Position numbers and translations under genes: made by a program
Origin: Candidatus Kuenenia hertensis
Lineage (GTDB): Bacteria > Planctomycetota > Brocadiia > Brocadiales > Brocadiaceae
Assembly (NCBI GenBank): GCA_021646465.1
Contig: SOET01000018.1
Coordinates: forward strand, 1-64,000
DNA: 64,000 nt
Reading direction: 5' to 3'
Shown: positions 7,493 to 33,015 of the stretch, one piece after another
Layout of the letters: the number at the start of each line of letters is the position of its first letter
Numbering within the stretch: position 1 is the first letter of the stretch
The notes under the pieces: model-generated
What the model was told of the DNA's origin: nothing
Databases searched by the model: none
Seen by the model: only the letters and a program-made list of their open reading frames with translations

Positions 7493-9274
7493 ATGAACAA
7501 GATTCGGGAAAATAATACGGTGAAGGAAATAGCGGAAAAGTTTCCGGTAACCCGAAAGATATTTGATACCTATGGAATAATGTGCGGCGGAGATTCGCTT
7601 CCGGACAAACCAATTTCTTTTTTTGCCAAGATGCATAACGTTAATCCATCTACATTAATCGAAGATCTGCAAAATCTTATTGATGGTAAAGAAGTAGAAA
7701 ACGACGAAGTGTCATTAATTAAACCTCAAACGGAACATATTTATGAATTTTTTATAAAAACCTCAATTATCATCGTACTTTCGACTGGCTGTCTTTATGG
7801 AGCCTCAATTTTGGCATATATGGCGTATAAGAGGTCATTCCTTTCCGTTCCCTGGGTGCTGTTAGAAACACATGGAGACACACAAGTCTATGGGTGGGTG
7901 GGATTATTTATCATGGGTATTTCCTTCTTTGCTTTACCCAGGTTTTGGAATTCGATTTTGCATTGCACTCAACTTGCGTATAAAACGTTTTTCCTGATGG
8001 TGGCAGGAATTGTATTATCTTTTGTTTTTAAAACAATTTCATATTATTCAGGGGCGTTTTTCTTCAAAATCCCCGTATTAATAGGATTGTCACTTCAAAC
8101 AGCTTCTATTGCCATTTTCATGTACGTACTGATCAGAACATATTTTTCTTCCGAAAAAAAAGAATATGAAGTTTACGAAGGTTTCATACTATCAAGTTTT
8201 CTATGGTTTTTCCTCCAGGCACTTGCTTTTGCTGCCCTGCATTTTCATTACTGCATCGTAAATAATACAGATATCCCCGTATATTTTAAAGATCCCATCC
8301 GGCATATTCAGATTGTCGGTTTTTCATGTATGGTAATAATCGGCATTTTTACTAAAACGTTACCAATATTTCTCGGTATACAGGTACCCAACAAAAAAAA
8401 CAGCTTTTACGTATTAATACTGCTGAATTTTTCAATAGCTTTAAGAGTTATCGCTGAATTTTACAAGGGCTATACTCTTAATCTTCACGGGTTTTTTATT
8501 ACATTGTCTTGTGTTGCAGGGCTTTTAGAAGCTTTTAGCATTTTTCTCTTTATCTATAATTTAAACCTGTTCGACAAACGAAAACTCGTTAAAAATAAGG
8601 TAAAACTTCCGACCGGATTCAGAAAATACATACGGGCGGCATTATTCTGGTTGTTTATCTCTGAAAGCGCCTTTTTAACTTTTACCATTTATGAGACAGT
8701 GGCAGGTGAAAAAGTTTCTCATGCCTTATTCGGGGCATATCGGCACGCGATTTTTGTGGGGTTTATCAGTATGATGATTATCGGATGCGCATCGAAAATG
8801 ATTCCATTAAGCAAGGGAGTAAAACTGTATAGCCCAAAACTGCTGAACATAACATTTTTCCTCATCACATTAGGTTGCGTCAGCAGGGTCGTCACACAGC
8901 CTGTCTCATTTCACTTTAACCCGCAATTTTATTCCATGCTGGGAATCAGTGGTTTTATAGAATATGCTGCTATATTCTTTTTTAGTGTTAATGTATGGAA
9001 AACGCTGAAATCGGAACAAGAAGAAATTACCGAAGAAATAAACTCTGCAACTGCCGCTACAAATGTATATCAATTGGTGAAGCAATATCCGCAAACATTA
9101 GATATTTTAGTAGGATATGGCTTTAAACAACTAAAAAATCCTGTATTAAGAAATACGCTGGCGAGAACAATTAGTTTGGGACAAGCAGTACAAATTGTAC
9201 CGGTAAATCTTGAGGATTTGTTAAAAGATCTGAATGCAGCAATAAAGCCGCATATCACCACCTCGTCTCAATAG
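7493..9274 (+). CDS. NnrS-like polytopic membrane protein with N- and C-terminal DUF542/DUF1858-type domains
   Basis: The 593-residue protein has three parts. Residues 1-65 form a helical domain like the DUF542/ScdA-N domain of Fe-S repair proteins (FDTYGIMCGG, then HNVNPSTLIEDL). Residues 80-500 hold about twelve hydrophobic helices with HGDTQVYGWVGLFIMG and YRHAIFVGFISMMIIG, resembling NnrS, a haem- and copper-binding membrane protein linked to nitric oxide tolerance. Residues 515-590 match DUF1858 closely (VYQLVKQYPQTLDILVGYGF, then NPVLRNTLA), but the usual Cys is missing. NnrS proteins normally lack these flanking domains. Function is inferred: NO or nitrosative-stress sensing or detoxification. 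It ends 2 bp from the convergent pgsA stop. Confidence 0.75.
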   Translation: MNKIRENNTVKEIAEKFPVTRKIFDTYGIMCGGDSLPDKPISFFAKMHNVNPSTLIEDLQNLIDGKEVENDEVSLIKPQTEHIYEFFIKTSIIIVLSTGCLYGASILAYMAYKRSFLSVPWVLLETHGDTQVYGWVGLFIMGISFFALPRFWNSILHCTQLAYKTFFLMVAGIVLSFVFKTISYYSGAFFFKIPVLIGLSLQTASIAIFMYVLIRTYFSSEKKEYEVYEGFILSSFLWFFLQALAFAALHFHYCIVNNTDIPVYFKDPIRHIQIVGFSCMVIIGIFTKTLPIFLGIQVPNKKNSFYVLILLNFSIALRVIAEFYKGYTLNLHGFFITLSCVAGLLEAFSIFLFIYNLNLFDKRKLVKNKVKLPTGFRKYIRAALFWLFISESAFLTFTIYETVAGEKVSHALFGAYRHAIFVGFISMMIIGCASKMIPLSKGVKLYSPKLLNITFFLITLGCVSRVVTQPVSFHFNPQFYSMLGISGFIEYAAIFFFSVNVWKTLKSEQEEITEEINSATAATNVYQLVKQYPQTLDILVGYGFKQLKNPVLRNTLARTISLGQAVQIVPVNLEDLLKDLNAAIKPHITTSSQ

Positions 9275-9275
9275 T

Positions 9276-9842
9276 TTACCTTTCTAATAACGCGGGACTT
9301 GCTTTTACCATATACTTTATACCGGAAACCACCGTTATAATCACCGTCGACCATAACAGAGCAATGATTATATTTCTTACGCTTTCCACATGTTGCAGAT
9401 AAGCGGAAAAGAGTAAAATTAAACTGATTGTCAATGCCTGGACAAACATCTTTGCTTTCCCCCACATTGTAGCGCCGAATTCAATACCTCTTGCTTCAGA
9501 ATAACTTCTTATACTGCTGACAAAAAATTCTCTGGCGACAATCACAACTACCATCCAGGGGGGAATATTCTCTTGTCCATGTTTTATCAGCAAGATAAAA
9601 CCTCCACAAACAATAATTTTATCTACAAAGGGATCCGCAAGGCGCCCAAAATCAGTTAAAAGGCCTTTCTTCCTCGCCAAATAACCATCTAACCAGTCGG
9701 TTAATGATGCTACTAAAAATGAAAAAAGGGATATCGTGTAACAATGGTAAGACAGAAAAATAAAAAATATAATAGCCAGCAAAAGTCTGAGTAATGTCAG
9801 ACTATTCGGCAGATTAAACATGGTTGATTTTTGGAAGCCCAT
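9276..9842 (-). CDS. pgsA: CDP-diacylglycerol-glycerol-3-phosphate 3-phosphatidyltransferase
   Basis: This integral membrane enzyme makes phosphatidylglycerol phosphate from CDP-diacylglycerol and glycerol-3-phosphate, the committed step to acidic phospholipids. The CDP-alcohol phosphatidyltransferase signature D-x2-D-G-x2-A-R-x8-G-x3-D-x3-D is intact (DWLDGYLARKKG, then GRLADPFVDK). Four to five membrane helices are apparent. The start is uncertain: a TTG at 9848, ATG at 9842 or ATG at 9821; the last gives the family-typical MFNLPNSLT. It is the last gene of the ten-gene minus-strand block, about 45 bp after rimO. Confidence 0.9.
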   Translation of the reverse strand: MGFQKSTMFNLPNSLTLLRLLLAIIFFIFLSYHCYTISLFSFLVASLTDWLDGYLARKKGLLTDFGRLADPFVDKIIVCGGFILLIKHGQENIPPWMVVVIVAREFFVSSIRSYSEARGIEFGATMWGKAKMFVQALTISLILLFSAYLQHVESVRNIIIALLWSTVIITVVSGIKYMVKASPALLER

Positions 9843-9886
9843 AAGCAATAACTCACTTTTTAATTTAATTACTTGTTTTTAAAAAA

Positions 9887-11206
9887 TCACGCAACTAAAT
9901 CATAACCGTTCACATTGGCAATAACCACTTCTCTAATTTCTCCCGCATTTATCTGATGGTCATTCATAAATACTTTTCCATCAACTTCAGGAGCGTCTCC
10001 GTATGTCCGTCCTATCAAACCTCCGGTGACAGTATCCTTTTCATCTACGATCACAGAAACTTTCTTTCCAATAAGATTTTTGTTATTTTCCAAAACAATA
10101 TCACGTTGAGCCAACATTATTTCTTCTACCCGTCGTTGCTTTACTTTTTTGCTTACTTGTTTACTAAAATTTGCTGCAGGAGTATTTTCTTCTTTAGAAT
10201 ATACAAACGCCCCGAGCCTTTCAAATTTAATTTTTTTAACAAATTCTAAAAGTTCCTGAAATTGCTCGTCTGTTTCTCCCGGAAATCCGACAATAACAGA
10301 AGTCCTTAAAACAATAGAATGCATTGATTCCCTTAAATTATTTATGAGAGTAACGATACTTTTACGGGTAATTTTTCTGCCCATTTTTTCAAGGATAGTA
10401 TCATTAATATGTTGAATCGGCAAATCGACATATTTGCAAATTTTATCTTGTACACTCATGGTCTTAATCAATTCCGGATAAAAATGTCGGGGATGTGTAT
10501 ATAACAATCTTATCCACTGAATACCTTCAATCTCAGCAATATTCTCCAGCAATACATGCAACATCTGTTTCCCATATATGTCAACACCATATGAAGTAGT
10601 ATCCTGTGAAATAATATTTATTTCTTTCACCCCTTCAAAAGCCATTTGTCTGGCCTCTTCCATAATATTCTCAACAGTTCTGCTCATAAAAGTTCCGCGT
10701 ATTCCGGGAATGGCGCAGTATGTACACCTATTATCACAACCATCTGAAATTCTCAGATATGAATAATGTTTAGGGGTGAGTCTGATTCTATTTCGCCAAT
10801 CATCATTATTATGATAAAAATTATTGTTATCATTTTTCTTTTTCTTAAGTTTACCCGTCAGATGAGTTATTTTTTCAAAATTTTTTAGACCAACAACATC
10901 ATCTATCTCAGGAATATCATTTTTCAATTCAGCAGAATAACGTTGCGCCAGGCAGCCTGTTACAATTAGTTTTTTACACCGGGCATTTTCTTTAAGCTTC
11001 GCCATCTTGAAAATCATATCGATTGATTCCTTTTTTGAATCATCGATGAAACCACAGGTATTTACAACAAGCACTTCAGCATCTTCAGGACGTTGGCATA
11101 TAGTACTGCCACCGGCTGCGATTCTGCCAAGCATTTCCTCCGCATCCACTAAATTTTTGGTGCATCCCAAATTAATTAATGCTACCGTTTTTGATTTGTT
11201 ATTCAT
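9887..11206 (-). CDS. rimO: Ribosomal protein uS12 methylthiotransferase
   Basis: RimO is a radical SAM enzyme that adds a methylthio group to the beta-carbon of an aspartate in ribosomal protein S12. The N-terminal MTTase domain carries the three conserved cysteines (LGCTKNLVDAE, NTCGFID, GCLAQRY). The radical SAM motif is CDNRCTYC, and a TRAM domain follows at the C-terminus. GCTKN rather than GCQMN separates it from MiaB. An upstream extension to 11254 is open, but the ATG at 11206 overlaps the ftsK stop by 8 nt (ATGAATAA), which implies translational coupling and gives 439 residues, the normal length. Confidence 0.95.
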   Translation of the reverse strand: MNNKSKTVALINLGCTKNLVDAEEMLGRIAAGGSTICQRPEDAEVLVVNTCGFIDDSKKESIDMIFKMAKLKENARCKKLIVTGCLAQRYSAELKNDIPEIDDVVGLKNFEKITHLTGKLKKKKNDNNNFYHNNDDWRNRIRLTPKHYSYLRISDGCDNRCTYCAIPGIRGTFMSRTVENIMEEARQMAFEGVKEINIISQDTTSYGVDIYGKQMLHVLLENIAEIEGIQWIRLLYTHPRHFYPELIKTMSVQDKICKYVDLPIQHINDTILEKMGRKITRKSIVTLINNLRESMHSIVLRTSVIVGFPGETDEQFQELLEFVKKIKFERLGAFVYSKEENTPAANFSKQVSKKVKQRRVEEIMLAQRDIVLENNKNLIGKKVSVIVDEKDTVTGGLIGRTYGDAPEVDGKVFMNDHQINAGEIREVVIANVNGYDLVA

Positions 11207-29516: not shown

Positions 29517-29794
29517 GTTGTAATTAATTTATTCTAAATTTCTCTCTTTGTGTATTTATTACATAAAATAAATTCTCTCATGTATTGAAAACCAGGACCA
29601 ACCAGGTAAATAACAATACAATTTTACTTTTAAAATGTAAAGGAAGAAATGATGGATTAATTCTACGTTCTGAAACAATGTATAAAGAGGTAACAATTGA
29701 ATAGCTATTAACAAAAAAGCATACTAAAATATGTTTTCCGTCTTTCTGAATGAACGGTAGTTGAACATTTGTCTTATGGGTTGACATTTAAGTA

Positions 29795-31228
29795 GTGAAT
29801 ATCCTTCTTATTGTTACCAATCGTTATCGGGGACCGACACCGGTGATACCCCTCGGGGCATGTATGATAGCGGATTCCACTGTACGGGCTGGCCATCATG
29901 TTCATGTATTAGACTTACTTTTCGTACGCAATCCATTAAGAGCCCTCTGCACAACACTCGATAAAATACAACCAGAGGTCATAGGACTCTCGGTACGAAA
30001 TATTGACAACAATGATATGCAGTATCCGGTTGCATTTTATAAAGATTTGAAACCACTCATCGATACTATTCGCACAAAAACCCAAGCAACGATTCTTCTT
30101 GGGGGTGCGGCTGTCGGAGTAATGCCGGAACAACTCCTCAATTATACCGGAGCAGATTGGGTAATAACAGGAAACGGAGAAGTCATCTTTCCCGAAGTGC
30201 TGGATGTTCTTTCTAAAAATGAAGAACCAACTCATGTGCCGGGTATTGCCTGGAGAGATAATACGGGTTTTAAAGTAAATACTCTTCAGGAAAATAATTT
30301 TGCGTTGAACGACGTAATTCCTGATTTTTACCGATGGATTAACGTGCCAGCGTATCTATCACGGTTTTCCACTATTCCCGTTCAGACGAAACTCGGATGC
30401 CACTTTCAATGTGTCTATTGCACATATAGAAGGCTTGAGGGCAATACTTACCAGTTATGTGATCCTGAACATGTAGCGAATGCAATTATAAAGTTAATAA
30501 AAAGTGGTATGAGCGATATTGAATTTGTAGATAATGTATTTAACTCCCCTTATGAACACGCGCTGGAGATCTGTGAGGCGATTGCAAAGACTGGGGCAAA
30601 TGCCAGGTTTCAAACGGTTGAGTTAAACCCCCTTTTTATTAATGATGAACTTCTTCTTACAATGGAACGGGCAGGTTTTGTTGGTATAGGTATTACCGTT
30701 GAAAGTGCCGCTAATCCAGTCCTGGAACGTTTAAAGAAAGGTTTTACCTCCTATGATATCTTTAAGGCATCTGAAATCGTCAGGAAACATAAAATACCCT
30801 GTCTCTGGATATTCATGTTCGGTGGCCCCGGCGAAACGGAAGAAACAGTTCTGGAAACGCTTCATTTCGCGAAAAAACAAATTCGGCCTGAAGATGTAGC
30901 GCTTTTTATGATAGGAATACGTATATATCCTGGTACTGAGATTGAAAATATAGCACGGTCGGAGGGCGTATTAACCGTTTCTCCCCATAATATGCTTGAA
31001 CCGGTATTCTACTTTTCTCCAGCCATTCAGTTGGAATGGTTATTGAAAACAATCCGTTCTGCCATGTCGGCACACATGAATTTTATGACTCCCAAAGCAA
31101 TAGGTTTACCATTCCTTCCTGCAATAAATCGTATGGGATATTGGTTGGGAATCAAACCGCCTCTCTGGAAAAATACGCGTTTAATTCGAAGATGCCTCAG
31201 ATATTTAGGGAGAGATATATTAATGTAA
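29795..31228 (+). CDS. B12-binding-domain radical SAM protein
   Basis: The 477-residue protein has an N-terminal cobalamin-binding-like Rossmann domain (about 1-150; PLGACMIADSTVRAGH at the start and GADWVITGNGEVIFPEVL at the end). The radical SAM core has CHFQCVYC binding the 4Fe-4S cluster (about residue 204), GIGITVESAANPVLERL, and MFGGPGETEETVLETL. The C-terminal ~100 residues are hydrophobic in part, as in lipid-modifying members. The frame begins at a GTG without a clear ribosome site. It is 20 bp from a type III polyketide synthase, so it probably acts on that enzyme's product. The precise reaction is not known. Confidence 0.85.
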   Translation: MNILLIVTNRYRGPTPVIPLGACMIADSTVRAGHHVHVLDLLFVRNPLRALCTTLDKIQPEVIGLSVRNIDNNDMQYPVAFYKDLKPLIDTIRTKTQATILLGGAAVGVMPEQLLNYTGADWVITGNGEVIFPEVLDVLSKNEEPTHVPGIAWRDNTGFKVNTLQENNFALNDVIPDFYRWINVPAYLSRFSTIPVQTKLGCHFQCVYCTYRRLEGNTYQLCDPEHVANAIIKLIKSGMSDIEFVDNVFNSPYEHALEICEAIAKTGANARFQTVELNPLFINDELLLTMERAGFVGIGITVESAANPVLERLKKGFTSYDIFKASEIVRKHKIPCLWIFMFGGPGETEETVLETLHFAKKQIRPEDVALFMIGIRIYPGTEIENIARSEGVLTVSPHNMLEPVFYFSPAIQLEWLLKTIRSAMSAHMNFMTPKAIGLPFLPAINRMGYWLGIKPPLWKNTRLIRRCLRYLGRDILM

Positions 31229-31248
31229 TAGTCTCGCGCATATAAATT

Positions 31249-32304
31249 ATGAAGAATGAAAATGTCACCATAGCCTCATTATCAACTGCAACACCACCAT
31301 ATGTGATAAAACAGGCTGAAGCAGAATCTTTTCTCGCAAAACATTATTCTAATAAACTAGGGCCAGGGAATCTTGTAAAAATGCGAAAGATTTTCGCTCA
31401 TCCGGGTGTATTATACAGACATATTGCAACGGAAGACATTGAGCGCCTTGCTAATGAACATCCGGATAGTCGTATAGACCGTTTTACAAATTGGGCAATA
31501 GAACTTTCGTCTCAAGCTATTAATGACGTTCTCACACAGGCAGGTTTAACAAAAAATGATATAACAGGATTGGTAGTAAATACCTGTACCGGATACATTT
31601 GCCCCGGAATTTCCACATATCTTATAGAAAAGCTCGGATTATCTGAGCAAATAAGGACCCACGACCTTGTAGGAAGCGGTTGTGGCGGTTCTATTCCAAA
31701 TCTGCAAATTTGCAAAGATATGATACAGGCAAACGGAGATGGAGTAGTCGTGAGTGTTTCGGTAGAAATTTGCAGTGCAACATTTCAAATGGCAGACGAT
31801 TTGAGTTTAATCATATCAAATGCAATCTTTGCTGACGGCGCAGCAGCCTCTGTTCTATGGAAACGCCCCGGCATATTTACCTTGGTTGCTTCTGCCAGCA
31901 GATGTGACACTCATTATCGTGAAGATATCCGATACATTTACAAAAATGGACAATTACATAACCAGCTTTCCAGAAAATTACCTGGGATTGCCAGTAAAAC
32001 CGTTTCTCAGCTTGTAATGGATCTGCTAAACCCCATTGGTTTAAGGCTTGAGGATATTCAACACTGGGCTTTCCATCCGGGAGGAGATAAAGTAATTAAT
32101 GCTATCGGGAACGATCTTGGACTTTCCGAATCACAACTGCAACCAACCCGTGACGTTTTGACGAGGTACGGAAACATGTCTTCTCCGACGGTATTGTTTG
32201 TGTTGCAGGAAATAATAAAGAAAGGCATTAACCCCGGTGATTGGTGTGTAATGATTGCATTCGGCGCCGGGCTGAGCGCCCACGGGTTTCTTCTGAAACA
32301 TTAA
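31249..32304 (+). CDS. Type III polyketide synthase (chalcone/stilbene synthase family)
   Basis: It should condense an acyl-CoA starter with malonyl-CoA units to make pyrones, resorcinols or related lipids. The catalytic triad is complete: Cys145 in GSGCGGSIPN, His276 in FHPGGDK and Asn309 in YGNMSSPTVLFVL. The last two contexts separate type III PKS from KAS III (FabH). Length 351 is typical of bacterial members such as PKS18 or ArsB. It lies 20 bp after the radical SAM gene on the same strand. A role in unusual membrane lipids, for example a ladderane precursor step or alkylresorcinols, is inference. Confidence 0.9.
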   Translation: MKNENVTIASLSTATPPYVIKQAEAESFLAKHYSNKLGPGNLVKMRKIFAHPGVLYRHIATEDIERLANEHPDSRIDRFTNWAIELSSQAINDVLTQAGLTKNDITGLVVNTCTGYICPGISTYLIEKLGLSEQIRTHDLVGSGCGGSIPNLQICKDMIQANGDGVVVSVSVEICSATFQMADDLSLIISNAIFADGAAASVLWKRPGIFTLVASASRCDTHYREDIRYIYKNGQLHNQLSRKLPGIASKTVSQLVMDLLNPIGLRLEDIQHWAFHPGGDKVINAIGNDLGLSESQLQPTRDVLTRYGNMSSPTVLFVLQEIIKKGINPGDWCVMIAFGAGLSAHGFLLKH

Positions 32305-32370: not shown

Positions 32371-33015
32371 AAACCCACACTCTCTGAGTGTGGTCAGAGA
32401 GAGAAGGCTTTGCCAGTAAAACGACCCATTGTTACAATCTCAGTTGAGTTGTCCCCACAACATCAACGAAGGAGTAACAAATGAGTCGATTTCGTAAATT
32501 ATCGCATACGATATGGCATTGTCAATATCATATTCTGTGGACGCCGAAATATCGTTTAAGGATTCTCACAGGGCAAGTAGCGGATGAAGTAAACAGGTGC
32601 ATAAGGGCATTTTCTGAGCAGAAAGGTTGTGAAGTAATGGAATTGAATGTGCAGATAGATCATGTTCATTTGATAGCGATGGTAGTGCCCAATGTATCGA
32701 TATCAGAATTTGTGGGAATAGTGAAAGGTCGAACAGCGATACGAATATTTAACAAGTATCGGCATTTGAAGCAGAAGCCGTATTGGGGGAATCACTTTTG
32801 GTCAAGGGGGTACTGTGTAGATACAGTGGGATTAGATGCAGAAAAGGTGCGTAAATACGTGAAATATCAAGAGCAGAAAGAACGTCAAGAAGAACAAAGA
32901 AAAGTGAAAGGGTAAAATGGTCAGGGGACAACTCACCTTGCTTCCTTTGGGAGCAAGGCATATTTATCCCCTTCCAGGGGTTATCCCAAAGCCACCTGCT
33001 CCGCGGGTGGATTCT
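32371..33015 (+). mobile_element. IS200-type single-gene insertion sequence
   Basis: A Y1 transposase gene is flanked by subterminal hairpins as in IS200/IS605. The left hairpin has arms 32375-32382 and 32386-32393 with loop TCT. The right hairpin has arms 32992-32999 and 33003-33010 with loop TCC and one G-U pair. An 11-bp inverted pair (GAGTTGTCCCC at 32446-32456 and its complement at 32924-32934) flanks the gene just inside and covers the region before the start codon. Exact cleavage sites were not determined. There is no tnpB. Confidence 0.8.
32481..32915 (+). CDS. tnpA: IS200/IS605-family transposase TnpA (Y1 HUH)
   Basis: The 144-residue single-strand transposase has the HUH pair in QIDHVHLIAMVV and a catalytic tyrosine in VRKYVKYQEQ near residue 130. 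The opening HTIWHCQYHILWTPKYR is typical. AAGGAG precedes the ATG. The frame is intact, so the element may be active. A GTTGT-CCCC-ACAAC hairpin covers the ribosome-site region and could limit translation, as known in IS200. Confidence 0.93.
   Translation: MSRFRKLSHTIWHCQYHILWTPKYRLRILTGQVADEVNRCIRAFSEQKGCEVMELNVQIDHVHLIAMVVPNVSISEFVGIVKGRTAIRIFNKYRHLKQKPYWGNHFWSRGYCVDTVGLDAEKVRKYVKYQEQKERQEEQRKVKG

Follow-up and report, generated by a model that had tools for sequence, protein, structure and literature searches.

A gene for a B12-binding radical SAM protein and the type III polyketide synthase (PKS) gene that follows it form a real, conserved and functionally coherent module that is spread over several phyla. 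We see an even chance that this two-enzyme module makes a C-methylated polyketide lipid. A more specific reading is possible, although we hold it with less than even confidence: that the pair constitutes a so far undescribed anaerobic pathway, common to Nitrospirota, a third phylum and the anammox bacteria. A TsrM-like B12 enzyme would here C-methylate the ring of a type III PKS product, and the resulting phenolic lipid would be new and either redox-active or a membrane component. If true, type III PKS modules centred on a B12 radical SAM enzyme would have their first example here.

The gene pair in the window

The pair was found in the window, by which we mean the whole 64,000-nucleotide stretch of DNA that was analysed. 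The features discussed below are as follows.

29652..29794, + strand: intergenic stretch upstream of the pair; left edge of a variable segment, from the comparison with genome G228
29795..31228, + strand: B12-binding radical SAM protein gene, 477 aa, GTG start; predicted C-methyltransferase
31249..32304, + strand: type III PKS gene, 351 aa; triad C145, H276, N309
32481..32915, + strand: IS200-type transposase gene directly 3' of the pair; a neighbour outside the pathway, within the variable segment

The open reading frame positions place the PKS gene 20 bp downstream of the radical SAM gene on the same strand, and the window sequence thus confirms the coordinates and spacing given in the preliminary description. 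The pair is flanked by genes for FeoB, two CxxCxxCC proteins, the transposase, RlmH, QueE and QueC (FeoB, RlmH, QueE and QueC were assigned by eye). An operon role for the CxxCxxCC proteins and these four was considered and dropped, because outside Kuenenia they are not conserved beside the pair. The segment that holds the transposase gene (32481-32915) varies among related genomes. The earlier statement that the pair faces no other metabolic gene holds within the window; in Brocadia/Jettenia-like relatives WrbA is found upstream. Hydrazine synthase alpha (PF18582) was detected in the window's own genome, and the assignment to an anammox-type host is therefore right.

Conservation and co-inheritance

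Loci were drawn from named genomes, Planctomycetota, the phylum to which a Nitrospiraceae MAG belongs, and a small phylum around the isolate bin47. Of the 40 loci, from three phyla, that have a PKS of 47% identity or more and available upstream DNA, 38 have the radical SAM gene immediately before the PKS gene on the same strand. None of 26 loci whose PKS is more distant has it there, so the adjacency is not a matter of chance. Order and strand are kept in the 38 loci although the surrounding genes differ, and the gap ranges from an overlap to about 400 bp, with overlapping ends in many cases. In the two exceptions, L007 and L060, the PKS has no radical SAM gene beside it. The radical SAM gene of a Scalindua MAG (L002 6530-7955) is broken into two reading frames that overlap (residues 1-371 and 361-475), reflecting either a sequencing error or a frameshift.

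Trees of the two proteins contain the same clades in agreeing topology, namely Kuenenia with Scalindua, a Brocadia-like clade, a Nitrospirota group, G413 with G555, and bin47 with G315. Compared with Kuenenia stuttgartiensis (G088), the two genes have dN/dS values of 0.175 and 0.166; purifying selection acts on both. The PKS is present in 23 of the 33 genomes of the window's own family (18 of the 23 high-quality ones), and the pair as such occurs in Planctomycetota, Nitrospirota and the bin47 phylum. The preliminary description had read the two adjacent genes as one biosynthetic module, and the locus counts and congruent trees bear this out; the cross-genome search for the pair excludes the contrary case, that it is not conserved.

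Genome G088 belongs to the same genus as the window's genome and carries the pair at 83% and 87% identity. Its hydrazine synthase alpha equals a chain of structure 5c2v residue for residue over 782 positions, and we take that structure to be from K. stuttgartiensis. We thus regard G088 as K. stuttgartiensis and the window as coming from another Kuenenia-like species. K. stuttgartiensis has been stated to have no polyketide synthase (Rattray 2009, PMC2649909; Javidpour 2016, PMC4790861). Its type III PKS gene, intact and next to a B12 radical SAM gene, contradicts that statement for type III enzymes. Type III PKSs have been noted at lower abundance in Ca. Brocadiae (Milke 2024, PMC10896814). 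Anammox lipid studies have so far dealt mainly with ladderanes, and the pair has gone unnoticed in an organism reported as lacking a PKS. The open-licence literature that we searched holds no description of the pair or of the related family TIGR04072, which agrees with the earlier remark that no described pathway uses exactly these two enzymes.

The polyketide synthase

The PKS scores above the Pfam cut-offs for Chal_sti_synt_C (PF02797, 79.3 bits), Chal_sti_synt_N (PF00195, 58.2 bits) and FAE1_CUT1_RppA (PF08392, 63.8 bits). The full Cys-His-Asn triad of type III PKSs, already pointed out for this protein, was recovered as Cys145-His276-Asn309 and is invariant in 34 of 34 PKS sequences of the pair clade. 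By its domains and triad, the protein is a type III PKS with predicted condensing activity. The closest fold to its predicted structure (pLDDT 87.7) is that of Mycobacterium tuberculosis PKS11, an alkylpyrone synthase (Z 45.1); the resorcinol synthase CylI and others lie within 2 Z units of PKS11, and many plant enzymes within 3. These scores are so close, and sequence identity to structurally characterised enzymes is so low (about 28% at most), that the fold alone is not decisive and the class of product is loosely constrained.

Residues T114, C118 and C175 correspond to T144, A148 and C205 of Pks18; they are small and invariant in the 34 sequences. In Pks18 these residues line the long acyl tunnel, the C205F mutant being entry 1tee. 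Family and fold together make a resorcinol- or pyrone-type lipid, as proposed in the preliminary description, a plausible product. Among curated families the best match is DpgA (NF042429), at 168.3 bits for the window's PKS and 171 bits for another pair member; membership was rejected, as the score is far under the cut-off of 425.

The radical SAM protein

The partner protein has an N-terminal B12-binding domain (PF02310, 44.7 bits) and a radical SAM domain (PF04055, 69.8 bits), both over the Pfam cut-offs, the latter with a CX3CX2C motif (C202-C206-C209) that is invariant in 28 of 28 pair members. These are the features of a B12-dependent radical SAM enzyme. Its closest curated family is TIGR04072 (rSAM_ladder_B12), which it matches over the full length. 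We nevertheless rejected it as a TIGR04072 equivalog, since it scores 319 bits against a cut-off of 360, with the pair members tested at 303-324 and true members at 412-440. The pair proteins form a clade of their own, apart from TIGR04072 and on a long branch (support 100/99). Location also speaks against equivalence: the pair lies outside the fatty-acid/KAS gene cluster, of which L141 holds the cluster copy. The true TIGR04072 genes (L141 and L144) sit in an anammox fatty-acid cluster with KAS, FabG, FabZ, MMPL and phytoene-dehydrogenase-like genes, these neighbours having been assigned by eye. The window's genome (G000) has 37 TIGR04072 matches at E ≤0.001, several of them on contig C79 (for example L056 16938-18305), and one of the matching proteins resembles BzaD (268 bits, cut-off 450).

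The predicted structure (pLDDT 86.8) is closest to TsrM among solved folds, with Z 36.7 over 464 residues at 2.6 Å, followed by MgmA (Z 27.7) and OxsB (Z 26.9). A profile search also places TsrM first (E 1.1e-39). Absence from a fold-search listing was not used to exclude any family. Membership of the TsrM family (TIGR04428) was rejected at 111.9 bits against a cut-off of 500, and a fold in common with TsrM shows no function by itself. TsrM performs a polar methyl transfer to the sp2 C2 of tryptophan, for which Arg69 under the cobalt is required (PMC9692996, PMC13331322). The equivalent position here is R68, invariant in 28 of 28 pair members. As the same arginine is present in TIGR04072 and in BzaD-like relatives, it marks a wider group and not the pair alone. 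Two further residues are replaced, TsrM Glu273, which caps the iron-sulfur cluster, by V248 and Glu236 by Y211; the analogy is therefore partial, and the TsrM mechanism may not carry over. The closest fold and the invariant R68 point to the enzyme as a likely methylase of the polyketide, in line with what had been suggested for it.

Relation to ladderanes

The preliminary description had raised a ladderane link, and it is here that our data depart from it. Ladderane production is established for all cultured anammox bacteria; for the small-genome families it is deduced. A ladderane gene should thus occur in all anammox genomes and only there, and the pair shows neither pattern. At least eight genomes that encode hydrazine synthase lack it (G070, G267, G284, G138, G182, G195, G217 and G292), and it occurs in Nitrospirota and another phylum; hydrazine synthase was not found in the two pair-bearing genomes tested from there (those of loci L014 and L015). 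The 100% complete anammox genome G267 retains a 68-residue radical SAM stub (L140 8394-8597; G267:C2:728393-728593) beside an intact WrbA gene, with the PKS gone; we read this remnant as a decayed copy of the module.

Genome G228, from the same genus as the window and likewise 100% complete, lacks both genes. Its homology with the window stops at about position 29652, which puts the pair in a variable segment with its left edge there; because the right edge could not be matched, loss and insertion are indistinguishable in this case. Hydrazine synthase is itself missing from G228, and also from the pair-bearing G049. Since a draft assembly may fail to include a gene, an absence from one genome says little; taken together with the G267 stub, we count the absences as strong.

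That the pair builds or modifies ladderane chains, with the radical SAM enzyme doing ring-forming chemistry, has very little probability left. The idea draws on the anammox host and on the sister family, whose true members lie inside the anammox fatty-acid cluster (L141, from K. stuttgartiensis, at 440 bits), a locus type that was proposed for ladderanes (Rattray 2009, PMC2649909). The pair, however, lies outside that cluster, and we rejected the role on the distribution set out above, by which the pair is independent of ladderanes. The true TIGR04072 gene (L141 7352-8713, L144 6840-8237) itself turned up in few of the sampled anammox genomes, and its standing as a general ladderane gene is therefore doubtful as well.

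Neighbouring genes in relatives

In Brocadia/Jettenia-like loci the radical SAM gene is immediately preceded by a gene for the NAD(P)H:quinone oxidoreductase WrbA, and some of these loci also have a pirin or cupredoxin upstream. Neither WrbA nor pirin was found next to the pair in loci of Kuenenia, Scalindua or Nitrospirota. Pirins lie upstream of WrbA in L003, L004, L005 and L008, and the gene immediately before the radical SAM gene encodes a small cupredoxin-like lipoprotein in L010 (5930-6331), L005 (4922-5293), L011 (5945-6325) and L190 (3-410, incomplete at the contig start). At L060, in the planctomycete genome G012, where hydrazine synthase was not found, a pirin gene (8773-9489) overlaps a pair-clade PKS gene (9482-10567) that has no adjacent radical SAM gene. 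In several Nitrospirota loci, among them L179 (8867-9718), L182 (6691-7464) and L184 (8653-9453), the PKS gene is immediately followed by a gene of DUF5714 type (Pfam match tested on L179 only), which is possibly a third pathway member in those loci.

Proposed pathway and alternatives

In the pathway that we propose, the type III PKS would load a fatty acyl starter, extend it with malonyl-CoA and cyclise the product to an alkyl-α-pyrone or alkylresorcinol, as its family and fold suggest. The radical SAM enzyme would then move a methyl group from SAM via cobalamin to a nucleophilic sp2 ring carbon, by analogy with the indole C2 methylation of TsrM. R68 under the cobalt would favour polar transfer; as the counterpart of TsrM Glu273 is lacking, a radical route stays open. 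Aerobic planctomycetes have PKS operons for C-methylated alkylresorcinols with an ordinary methyltransferase and an FAD oxidoreductase; the B12 radical SAM enzyme may take the place of these in hosts that live without oxygen, which would make the pair an oxygen-independent counterpart of such operons. Since WrbA and pirin adjoin the pair in some relatives, a redox-active product of the quinone/quinol type is suggested; as a guess, WrbA might be the electron donor of the iron-sulfur cluster or of cobalamin, or else use a quinone-type product as its substrate. We infer the substrate, the product, the order of steps and the methylation itself. That the pair travels together across several phyla makes a phenolic or pyrone lipid formed by an oxygen-free route likely. 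If the pair works as proposed, phenolic lipids would be decorated without oxygen by a different type of enzyme from those of aerobic relatives, and TsrM-like aromatic C-methylation may extend to a second enzyme class.

The strongest alternative to this pathway concerns the reaction of the radical SAM enzyme. It may act otherwise on the polyketide or acyl chain, by oxygen-independent oxidation or cyclisation as in BchE or OxsB, or by methylation of an sp3 carbon along the usual radical route, and although we consider this unlikely it deserves to be taken seriously. Because V248 replaces Glu273, the way to the cluster iron could be open for SAM. The related families include BchE, and several enzymes of the B12 radical SAM class do something other than methylation (PMC13331322). 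Redox chemistry is hinted at by the neighbouring WrbA and pirin genes, and the enzyme would on this account replace the O2-dependent FAD oxidoreductase of aerobic operons. On the other side, the closest relative in both fold, by a margin of 9 Z, and sequence is a methylase of sp2 carbon, and the arginine at the Arg69 position is invariant, where OxsB has an Asn-water and TokK a Trp.

The PKS could also be of DpgA type, using malonyl-CoA only to make a small aromatic, non-lipid product of the 3,5-dihydroxyphenylacetyl kind. DpgA is indeed the top-scoring curated family, yet the score falls far below its cut-off, no DpgB-, DpgC- or DpgD-like genes were seen next to the pair in the loci inspected, the closest folds include alkylpyrone and resorcinol synthases, and the long-tunnel positions hold small residues; we judge this alternative improbable. 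Finally, the two genes could be co-located yet serve separate pathways, as L007 and L060, with a PKS and no radical SAM gene, might indicate. Against this are the constancy of order and strand in differing surroundings, the many overlapping ends, the congruent trees, and the joint absence of the intact pair from G228 and G267, the latter with its stub, all of which leave it a very slim prospect.

Comparison with known systems

The M. tuberculosis alkylpyrone synthases PKS11 and PKS18 share the fold, the triad and the small tunnel residues with the pair PKS, but they are about 28% identical to it and have no known B12 radical SAM partner. DpgA (3,5-dihydroxyphenylacetyl-CoA synthase) differs from this PKS, for which it is the best curated match, in the sub-cut-off score and in partner genes that were not noticed at pair loci. 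For the radical SAM protein, TIGR04072 (Kuste2803-type) offers a full-length match, an RNID motif and a lipid context in common, set against the lower score, the separate clade and the location outside the fatty-acid cluster. TsrM is nearest in solved fold and sequence and keeps Arg69 as R68, whereas the pair protein is only about 22% identical to it, lacks Glu273 and Glu236, and has no tryptophan or thiopeptide context.

As to organisation, the planctomycetal mtr-fdo-t3pks and cyanobacterial hidABC systems (PMC10896814) are likewise small operons with a type III PKS. The planctomycetal PKSs of the methyltransferase-oxidoreductase-PKS operons make pentadecyl- and heptadecylresorcinols (Milke 2024, PMC10896814), and they are only about 30% identical to the pair PKS. 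The closest PKSs outside the pair clade (36-41% identity) adjoin genes for an FAD-binding monooxygenase and a UbiE-type methyltransferase; a search of the window and the pair-clade loci showed neither a methyltransferase nor an FAD oxidoreductase beside the pair, and an mtr-fdo-t3pks operon was accordingly rejected. In Gimesia maris, from the same phylum as the window's host, the partner genes add one methyl group to the alkylresorcinol, probably on carbon (PMC10896814), so that there too a partner C-methylates the PKS product. In the mtr-fdo-t3pks operons the PKS is accompanied by a methyltransferase of the ordinary kind and by an FAD oxidoreductase; in the pair it is accompanied by a B12 radical SAM enzyme.
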